This document shows, one piece after another, positions 5,836 to 8,381 of a stretch of 22,877 bases of DNA. The notes below the pieces were generated by a model. That model ran no database searches. It saw nothing but the letters and a program-made list of their open reading frames with translations, and was not told the DNA's origin. The stretch is from a virus: the IMG/VR virus record IMGVR_UViG_3300023435_000101, positions 1-22,877 of that record. One strand, written 5' to 3'. The translations under genes and the position numbers were made by a program. Position 1 is the first letter of the stretch; the number at the start of each line of letters is the position of its first letter.

Positions 5836-6132
5836 ATGGCAAACGCATTAGGAAATGGTTTGTTGAATGCTGCATATTGGTCAAAAGTGATGCAAGAAGT
5901 CCGCTATAAAGATTTGGTTGCAATGGCTATCGCAAGCGTTGAACTACGCTCTACACTAAAAGACGGTGACACCGTGCACAAGCCCTACCGTTCAGCTGTG
6001 ACTGGACAAGCTTATACAAAAGGAACTGCTTTCACAGTACAGGATATCTCAGGTACAGACGATACTCTAGTGGTAAATATCGCTCGTATCGTACCTTTCT
6101 ACCTCGATGACGTAAAAAACATTTTTCACTTT
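5836..6132 (+). CDS. major capsid protein, exon 1 (residues 1-99)
   Basis: The first part of the coat protein. It opens MANALGNGLLNAAYWSKVMQ and continues through RYKDLVAMAIASVEL, HKPYRSAVTG and IVPFYLDDVKN, a run typical of P22-like HK97-fold coat proteins at their N-arm and early beta strands. The open frame continues to a stop at 6175-6177, but the extension after about 6132 loses protein character and falls in the intron. The proposed 5' splice site, after T6132, comes from a P1 helix with a U-G pair (U6132/G6149). Joined to exon 2 the phase is correct and gives a 401-residue protein. The exact junction could differ by a few codons. Confidence 0.8.
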
Positions 6133-6304
6133 TTAACTGGGAAGTTAAGAAGTAGTGTCTGCGTCTTTGCACAGTAATGTGCATTTATTAACTTGGCTAT
6201 ATCGGGGGAAGTCTCAGAAATGAGATTATCCCGACGGAAGAGCATACTTCGTGAGAAGTGGTAAACTCCCGCTAGAGACTACACGCCGAGTATCCTGAAA
6301 GCCC

Positions 6305-6333
6305 TTTACATTTTAATGGAAAGTTGATATAAT
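6305..6333 (+). promoter_or_regulatory. sigma-70-type promoter inside the intron
   Basis: TTTACA at 6305-6310 and TATAAT at 6328-6333 are separated by exactly 17 bases, an almost perfect housekeeping promoter. Transcription would start near 6340, only a few bases before the endonuclease ATG at 6343, giving an essentially leaderless message. This would let the homing endonuclease be expressed separately from the late capsid transcript. Confidence 0.6.
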
Positions 6334-6342
6334 ACAAGGTAT

Positions 6343-7008
6343 ATGAAATATATCAACCAATCAGATTACAACAAAAAATATTACCAAAAAAATAAAGAAA
6401 GAGAAAAAGCTAGAGCTAAGGAATATAGAGAGGATAACTTAGATAAGGTTAAATTAGCTTCAGCAAAAAAGTATAAAGAAAGTGGTAAAGAATACAGACA
6501 GGCAAATCTAGAAGCTTTTCGTAAACGCTCAAGAGAGTGGGCAAGAAAAGATAGATTAGAAAATCCTGAGAAGTATAAAAAGTTTGTTAAATCTGATACA
6601 AACAAGAAGATACAAAAACGATATAGAAAAAATAATAGGAAAAAAGTGTCTGAGATAGCTCGTGTTTATCACAGTAAAAAAGTAAAAGAAGACACTAATT
6701 ATCGTTTGAGAGGGTTATTAAGAAGTAGGGTAAATATAGCTATTAAAAGACAACTAGGTAACAAATGTTTTAAAACAATAGAATTACTTGGTTGTTCGAT
6801 TCAAGAAGCCCGTGAACATATAGAAAAACAGTTTCAACACTGGATGACTTGGGAGAATCACGGTACTTGGGAAATAGACCATATTATACCAGTCTCTTCT
6901 TTTGACTTAACGAAGCCAGAAGAACAAAAGAAATGCTTCAACTATAAAAATCTTCAACCATTAGAATGGAGGACAAATAGAATAAAATCTAACAGGATAG
7001 TGATATAG
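6343..7008 (+). CDS. intron-encoded HNH homing endonuclease
   Basis: A 221-residue protein inside the group I intron. The N-terminal 120 residues are very basic with repeated tyrosine/lysine motifs such as YNKKYYQKNKE, as in many phage HNH enzymes. The C-terminal nuclease domain has EIDHIIP (177-183) with the D179/H180 pair, FNYKNLQPL (199-207) and the closing N-x4-N stretch (212-217). Such enzymes nick or cut intronless alleles so that the intron spreads. The likely target is an uninterrupted capsid gene of a related phage. The TAG stop (7006-7008) is the first half of the P7 3' strand, so gene and ribozyme are fused at their edge. Confidence 0.93.
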   Translation: MKYINQSDYNKKYYQKNKEREKARAKEYREDNLDKVKLASAKKYKESGKEYRQANLEAFRKRSREWARKDRLENPEKYKKFVKSDTNKKIQKRYRKNNRKKVSEIARVYHSKKVKEDTNYRLRGLLRSRVNIAIKRQLGNKCFKTIELLGCSIQEAREHIEKQFQHWMTWENHGTWEIDHIIPVSSFDLTKPEEQKKCFNYKNLQPLEWRTNRIKSNRIVI

Positions 7009-7081
7009 TCCGTTCTCTATGGTGACATAGAGAGGTGAGCAGAAATGACTCATCCGCCCGAAAGGGTAGTAACAAATATGG

Positions 7082-7990
7082 GATTCTATCCAAAATTCAT
7101 ACAACACTGCAGATGAATTTGCAGCTGATTCTATGGATAAACTTAACCGCTTTGTTGATGCTGATGTACTTGGCGAATATGCTAACGCTACATCTGACAT
7201 TGATGACGGTGATGTTGGTGGTACAGCTGGTAACACAATTGTTATCGGTACAGGTAATATACAAAAAATCTTTACAGCTGGTGCTCGTAAAATGGACTTA
7301 CTAAATGTAAGCTCAAAGAACAGATTTGCTGTTATCTCTCCTTCAATCTTAGAAATTCTAAGACAATACTTAGAAGGTAAAGATACTGCATTCGGAGACC
7401 AAGTTGGTAACAATGGTAAAGTAATGACAAGATTTGGCTTAGAGCTTTATCTTTCAAACAATCTTTCCTATACAGCTACTTGGACACCTTTAAATGAACC
7501 TACTGAAGCTGATACTATTACCATCGCTGGTGTTGCATTCACTTTCAATGCTACTCCATCTGGAGCTGGTTCAATTAACTTAGGTGGTACAGTTGCTGCT
7601 ACTCTTGATAACTTAGTTGCTTGTATCAATGGTACAGGTACTGCTGGAACAGATTACATTGCGTTGTCTGATGCTAGCAAGGCTACCTTAGAAGGTCTTG
7701 TAGCTACTGATGGTACTACTGCTATGACTATCGTATTCCACGGTGGTTCAGAAGTTGCTTTAGCTGCTAGCGAAGCTGCTGATGTTTGGAGTGTAGAAAC
7801 ACTACACGTATTGATGGGTCAAAAAGGTGCTACAAACTTGGTTATGCAAAAATCTCCAAGTGTAGTTATCAAAGATGTACAAGATAAACTTGGTAAAAAC
7901 TATGCTCCTTGGATGTTGTATGGTCTAAAGACTTTCAACAATGATAAGGACAAATTGGTTGATGTCAAGATTGACGGTTCAGCACTATAA
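7082..7990 (+). CDS. major capsid protein, exon 2 (residues 100-401)
   Basis: The remainder of the coat protein. The first codons read DSIQNSYNTADEFAADSMDK, then LNRFVDADVLGEYANA, the spine-helix region typical of HK97-fold coats. The ATG at 7133 is internal, not a start. Around mature residues 228-338 there is an inserted beta-rich domain (ADTITIAGVAFTFNA and following) of a type common in phage structural proteins, comparable to the surface insertion domain of P22 coat. The C-terminal part returns to coat-like sequence (NLVMQKSPSVVIKDVQDK, YGLKTFNNDKDKLVDVKI). The frame is open upstream only to the TAA at 7070-7072, so it needs splicing to exon 1. Confidence 0.85.
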   Translation, partial: DSIQNSYNTADEFAADSMDKLNRFVDADVLGEYANATSDIDDGDVGGTAGNTIVIGTGNIQKIFTAGARKMDLLNVSSKNRFAVISPSILEILRQYLEGKDTAFGDQVGNNGKVMTRFGLELYLSNNLSYTATWTPLNEPTEADTITIAGVAFTFNATPSGAGSINLGGTVAATLDNLVACINGTGTAGTDYIALSDASKATLEGLVATDGTTAMTIVFHGGSEVALAASEAADVWSVETLHVLMGQKGATNLVMQKSPSVVIKDVQDKLGKNYAPWMLYGLKTFNNDKDKLVDVKIDGSAL

Positions 7991-8015: not shown

Positions 8016-8381
8016 ATGAATAAAGAAACTTTGACGAAAATTGCGTTGGTGGTGGGTATAGTGATTATGTTGTTTGTGTTAGTCTCAATGGTTACAGGAC
8101 TAGTAAAAGGAAAAGATATTGACCCAGCTACTTTAGGTGGTGTCTATAATCATCCTACTGGTGTTATAACTGCTGATCTAACAGGAGACGTTACAGGAGA
8201 TGTAGTCGGTGATGTGACTGGTGATCTTACTGGTGACGTAACAGGCGATATCACAGGTGACGGTGTTTTAACAACATCTACTATTACAAATTTATTTGTT
8301 AATAATGGTACTGATTGTACTAAAATTAGTTTTGATGGAAGTACAACTACTCCAACCTACGCTACAAGTACATGCCCATAG
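8016..8381 (+). CDS. membrane-anchored T-G-D repeat protein
   Basis: A 121-residue protein with a short cytoplasmic N-terminus, a transmembrane helix at about residues 9-30 (ALVVGIVIMLFVLVSMVTGL), a linker, then seven tandem tetrapeptides of the form [LVI]-[TV]-G-D (residues 55-82). A C-terminal tail carries Cys101 and Cys120 and ends TSTCP. Repeats of this kind usually form a small beta-solenoid. The membrane anchor should place the solenoid outside the cell, unusual for a gene between capsid and fibre genes. It could be a host-surface display protein, for instance in exclusion, or a virion fibre with a buried hydrophobic anchor. No family is assigned. Confidence 0.75.
   Translation: MNKETLTKIALVVGIVIMLFVLVSMVTGLVKGKDIDPATLGGVYNHPTGVITADLTGDVTGDVVGDVTGDLTGDVTGDITGDGVLTTSTITNLFVNNGTDCTKISFDGSTTTPTYATSTCP
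8178..8261 (+). repeat. seven tandem 12-bp repeats in the coding region
   Basis: Seven in-frame units of roughly [CG]TN-ACN-GGN-GAY code for the T-G-D tetrapeptides of the membrane-anchored protein. Third positions differ between units while the residues stay the same, so selection has kept the protein pattern. Copy number could change by slippage or recombination. Confidence 0.85.

Follow-up and report, generated by a model that had tools for sequence, protein, structure and literature searches.

A group I intron carrying an HNH-type endonuclease frame in the major capsid gene of an uncultivated phage and its relatives at two adjacent sites

The major capsid gene in a 22,877-nucleotide stretch of viral DNA (IMG/VR record IMGVR_UViG_3300023435_000101, positions 1 to 22,877; hereafter the window) is broken into two reading frames by a segment that does not read as coat protein, which raises the question of what this segment is, where it would be removed and how it came to lie there. 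The comparisons described below indicate that this is very probably a mobile group I intron that interrupts an HK97-fold major capsid gene, is spliced at 6113/7080 and encodes an HNH-type protein that most likely serves its homing. A sequence-only reading of the window had proposed that the capsid gene is split by a group I intron in which an HNH-type ORF lies, and the proposal was supported by intronless relatives, three homologous introns, covariation, an Rfam match for one of the homologues and a structural model with the HK97 fold.

The interrupted gene was identified as the major capsid gene because of its profile matches, its head-gene context and the fold of a modelled relative. In a profile search both halves matched the PHROG 267 major head protein over consecutive stretches of the profile, with 5836-6177 aligning to profile positions 44-122 (E=4.4e-9) and 7133-7990 to positions 141-277 (E=3.8e-7), and terminase and SU10-type portal genes are located upstream. 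The capsid model of the intronless relative L007 (pLDDT 84) grouped in Foldseek with the HK97-fold capsids of cyanophage A4, P-SCSP1u and P22, so that fold and gene context both place the protein among the HK97-fold major capsid proteins. The insertion site falls in a short helix of this model (residues 92-97) just ahead of the long spine helix (102-128). Capsid relatives from isolated phages were remote, at 27-32% identity. Directly after the capsid gene, positions 8016-8381 encode a small protein whose N-terminus is hydrophobic and which contains GDVTGDV/GDLTGD repeats in tandem.

The splice sites were placed after U6113 and after G7080 by intronless relatives and by three homologous introns. 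Over the site the insert-free IMG/VR relatives L005 and L007 read FYLDDV-DSIQNSYN, and L006 and L008 are similar. Introns related to that of the window, each with a related ORF, were found in three more capsid genes, L009 (contig 3300009149_000902), L021 (3300020171_000073) and L074 (3300025661_000147), giving four homologous introns with the window included, and in each of the three the capsid sequence becomes continuous once a segment preceded by U and terminated by G is excised. Joining the window exons at U6113/G7080 yields GAT GAC GT/G GAT TCT ATC, or DDVDSIQ (the slash marks the junction), and a spliced product of 395 residues that aligned end to end without gaps to L013, L014 and L015 (77-86% identity). 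Because this product aligns ungapped to intronless homologues, the intron was assigned to 6114-7080 (967 nt).

The internal guide pairs completely at these sites, with five of five pairs in P1 and four of four in P10 (9/9 in all). The U.G at the 5' splice site is U6113.G6161 and the omega-G is G7080, as expected of a group I intron. Equivalent guides were recognized in the homologues: L021 has GACAU/AGAC with guide GUUU-GUGUC (5 and 4 pairs), L009 has UACGU/UGAU with guide UUCA-GCGUC (4 and 3 pairs) and L074 has UACGU/GGAU with guide GUUU-GCGUC (4 and 4 pairs). A G-to-A change in the L021 exon is matched by a C-to-U change in its guide.

Table 1. Positions of the exons, intron elements and reading frame in the window
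Feature	Position	Strand	Basis or remark
Exon 1, major capsid gene: codons 1-92 plus two bases of codon 93; last bases GACGU	5836..6113	+	PHROG 267; boundary set by comparison with intronless relatives and three homologous introns
Group I intron, 967 nt, ending with omega-G	6114..7080	+	Relatives, helices, covariation; Rfam below threshold here, above for the L009 homologue
Hairpin CUUUUUAACU-GGG-AAGUUAAGAAG in P1 loop, earlier taken for P1	6129..6152	+	Sequence; absent from three homologous introns
Internal guide GUCU-GCGUC	6157..6165	+	GCGUC with exon 1 GACGU (6109-6113) forms P1; GUCU with exon 2 GGAU (7081-7084) forms P10
P2 hairpin, GUAA loop; contains in-frame stop codon (6175-6177) ending unspliced exon 1 frame	6168..6183	+	
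P3, 5' strand	6191..6197	+	3' strand 6285-6291; P4-P6 between
P7, 5' strand GACUA	6277..6281	+	
P8, 5' strand AUCCUG	6292..6297	+	3' strand 6993-6998; ORF within P8 loop
Promoter-like site TTTACA-17-TATAAT in P8 loop, 9 nt ahead of ORF	6305..6333	+	11/12 matches
HNH-type endonuclease ORF, 221 aa; stop codon within P7 3' strand	6343..7008	+	PHROG 1035; three other capsid introns carry intact relatives
P7, 3' strand UAGUC	7006..7010	+	
P9 (7015-7032), then P9.1 and P9.2 up to intron end	7015..7080	+	Double-sided covariation
Exon 2, major capsid gene	7081..7990	+	PHROG 267; HK97 fold of intronless L007

Helices P2 to P9.2, including the whole P3-P8 core, all form in the window, and the three relatives have equivalents of each. 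P3 (ACUUGGC/GCCGAGU) and P7 (GACUA/UAGUC) are present as the earlier reading gave them, while its statement that every core hairpin ends in a GNRA loop held on the sequence for P2, P5, P6b, P9 and P9.2 and failed for P9.1. Double-sided changes among the relatives occurred in P3, P4, P9 and P9.1. When the 3' domains of the four introns were aligned, 96.8% of cells paired and seven pairs had changed on both sides, compared to 2.4 +/- 1.2 after shuffling (0 of 500 shuffles reached 7), and shifting the pairing partners by one to three columns destroyed this signal. The unspliced exon 1 frame stops inside the P2 hairpin in the window, L009 and L021, and does not do so in L074; such a stop would keep ribosomes out of the intron core.

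A covariance search with the Rfam model Intron_gpI (RF00028) had been suggested as a check, and its outcome was divided. The whole window gave no match at gathering level. The window copy has the P1-P9 order of the family and its P3 and P7 are as expected, but it differs in carrying its ORF in a very long P8 and scored 28.4 bits against a gathering threshold of 50; matched in two halves, it gave 22.8 and 17.9 bits. The L009 homologue passed the threshold at 51.5 bits and L021 reached 35.8 bits. An assembly error is unlikely since an identical insert was found in three other metagenome contigs. A DNA similarity search against isolated phages returned only one match, in which about 75 bases at the intron 3' end (7002-7076) matched at 79% an annotation-free stretch in Lysinibacillus phages LysYB1 and LysYB2; this suggests that these phages may carry a related intron.

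The ORF in the P8 loop matched PHROG 1035 endonuclease VII (E=3.6e-5), with a Pfam HNH match below the cut-off. An NCBIfam search with the ORF returned nothing and a sequence search of the PDB nothing useful. A WEIDHI...NLQP...N motif is kept in the aligned relatives of the ORF, which is open and homologous in all four introns. Identity between the window endonuclease and its three counterparts is 51-55% (55% for that of L074 by tblastn), and the window capsid shares 42-59% identity with the capsids of those relatives. Similar promoter-like sites with 11/12 matches lie ahead of the ORF in L009 and L074, and the one in L021 was unconvincing.

Comparative sequence analysis shows the boundaries, the core structure and the patchy distribution of the intron, and splicing, cleavage and homing are inferred to proceed as follows. 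In the folded capsid pre-mRNA the guide GUCU-GCGUC would base-pair both with the last bases of exon 1 (GACGU, with U.G at the cut) and with the first bases of exon 2 (GGAU), and two transesterifications would excise 6114-7080 and join DDV to DSIQ in a capsid protein of 395 residues. The HNH-type protein would be made from the P8 loop, probably via its own promoter, and would most likely cut intronless capsid alleles of co-infecting relatives, with repair copying the intron in. That capsid supply depends on splicing, as the earlier reading held, is a fair inference.

The splice proposed by the sequence-only reading, at T6132/G7081, has in its favour that the frame is preserved and that T6132 takes part in a U.G pair of a hairpin. 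It would join ...CACTTT to GATTCT, where the corrected exons run from ...GATGACGT to GGATTCTATC, and would read FYLDDV-KNIFHF-DSIQN, giving a coat of 401 residues rather than 395 with KNIFHF inserted just ahead of the spine helix. These six residues are present in no relative, in which the junction equivalent to U6113/G7080 is conserved, and the hairpin at 6129-6152, formerly taken for P1, lies within an extended P1 loop and is missing from the three homologous introns, which use a guide equivalent to 6157-6165. The same intron being spliced at T6132/G7081 is therefore highly improbable. Hardly credible at all is a dead or misassembled insert, with the phage making a truncated or split capsid: the window copy does fall below the Rfam threshold, but its core, guides and ORF are intact, the identical copy recurs in other contigs, and exon 1 and exon 2 are each 77-86% identical to intronless capsids.

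The intron might also splice while the ORF product, degenerate or acting elsewhere, plays no part in homing, with spread occurring by guide-directed reverse splicing. ORF relatives are common in other phages, and the homologous introns are found at two sites separated by 9 nt, where no guide fits the unoccupied copy better than the occupied one; both observations would be consistent with this account. However, the reading frame has been kept open in all four introns and HNH proteins borne by phage introns are usually homing enzymes, and the use of both sites could also be explained by an endonuclease that tolerates the near-repeat. We consider a non-homing ORF unlikely and retain homing by the HNH-type protein as the preferred explanation.

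The two sites are as follows. Site A, between V/I93 and D94, holds the introns of the window and L021, and site B, F-Y-V/D-D, holds those of L009 and L074; B is located 9 nt upstream of A in the same codon phase. They are near-repeats of one another, encoding DVD (GAY GTN GAY) at A and YVD (TAY GTN GAY) at B. The guides of the window and L021 pair better with the occupied copy than with the other copy. In L009 the copies are equal in pair count and only the occupied one lacks a mismatch beside the splice-site U, and in L074 P1 ties as in L009 while P10 favours the occupied copy.

A different intron-like insert was found in a related capsid gene at codon 10 in L022 (2071-2757, 687 nt) and also in L023. 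Its ORF in L022 (2162-2623) encodes a LAGLIDADG protein (PF00961, E=1e-6), and removing the insert restores MANTLTAFAPELWTP. A possible P1, CGCCU with GGGCG, could be drawn; Rfam did not support a group I assignment for the L022/L023 insert, and model R1, built on the intron 3' domain, found its 3' end weakly (22.1 bits). The pattern across these genes may mean that the capsid gene of this lineage, to whose relatives likely phages of code-25 Patescibacteria belong, is a recurrent intron target. One group I family would shift between two copies of a degenerate target (YVD and DVD) spaced 9 nt apart, the guide following the occupied copy, either through reverse splicing or through an endonuclease of relaxed specificity, and an unrelated LAGLIDADG-bearing intron would have invaded this gene in a further relative; we offer this reading tentatively and with more doubt than confidence.

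Among approximately 60 capsid relatives, nearly all apart from the insert-bearing ones were uninterrupted, including the nearest neighbours of the window, L005 and L007 (about 86% identical). On a capsid tree of 16 rows, in which L022 was scored as free of the HNH intron although it holds a different insert, the four introns need four state changes, all forced by supported branches. This patchy distribution would imply repeated gain or loss; repeated acquisition by homing suits it, with repeated loss as the alternative. Degenerate P7-P3-P8 pattern matches in L067, L069 and L071 were rejected as chance matches in coding sequence. Model R1 also matched L216 at 251-316 (27.6 bits, E=3e-4), which may mark one more group I intron; the L216 contig has no more than a short domain in common with the capsid.

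Introns in phage capsid genes are already known, and what is new here is that one intron family uses two adjacent sites and that the gene has been targeted repeatedly. The closest parallel is mycobacteriophage LittleE, in which splicing of a major capsid intron was shown by RT-PCR and N-terminal sequencing (PMC3706429). There too an intron of about 0.8 kb with an endonuclease ORF lies in the major capsid gene, the exon ends in U and the intron in G, and close relatives are intron-free. In LittleE the ORF is of a LAGLIDADG-like type and runs on the opposite strand, whereas the ORF here is HNH-type, on the capsid strand and in the P8 loop. Lactococcal phage Tuc2009 is cited in PMC3706429 as another case in which a group I intron interrupts the gene for a capsid subunit. 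In phage PhiPA3 an intron endonuclease interferes with a co-infecting phage (PMC11620839); the endonuclease is likewise borne by a group I intron and might be of similar use against intronless relatives here, although interference was demonstrated in PhiPA3 and is a possibility for the window, and a different gene is interrupted.

The window adds a well-bounded intron in the virion gene whose protein is needed in the largest amounts, so that efficient splicing is required. The occurrence of related introns at two neighbouring sites offers a natural test of how an intron changes address, by its endonuclease or by guide-directed reverse splicing. Annotation can split or miss capsid genes of uncultivated phages.

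A search of genome contigs for a host with capsid and terminase queries returned no relative. In-frame TGA codons occur in the capsid relatives L026 (2764-3927), L029 (2710-3906), L180, L182, L188, L189 and L190, where most of them align with conserved glycines; this suggests the use of code 25 and Gracilibacteria or Absconditabacteria as hosts. Reading TGA as an amino acid is the code of these two groups, and their phages may use either code (PMC10746230). The window uses the standard code, and the stops of its 24 called genes comprised one TGA (portal, 4564), 18 TAA and five TAG, while TGA and TAG trinucleotides were equally common in the window. The scarcity of TGA stops would fit a present or former host in which TGA encodes an amino acid, and a patescibacterial host for the window phage would be a reasonable guess.
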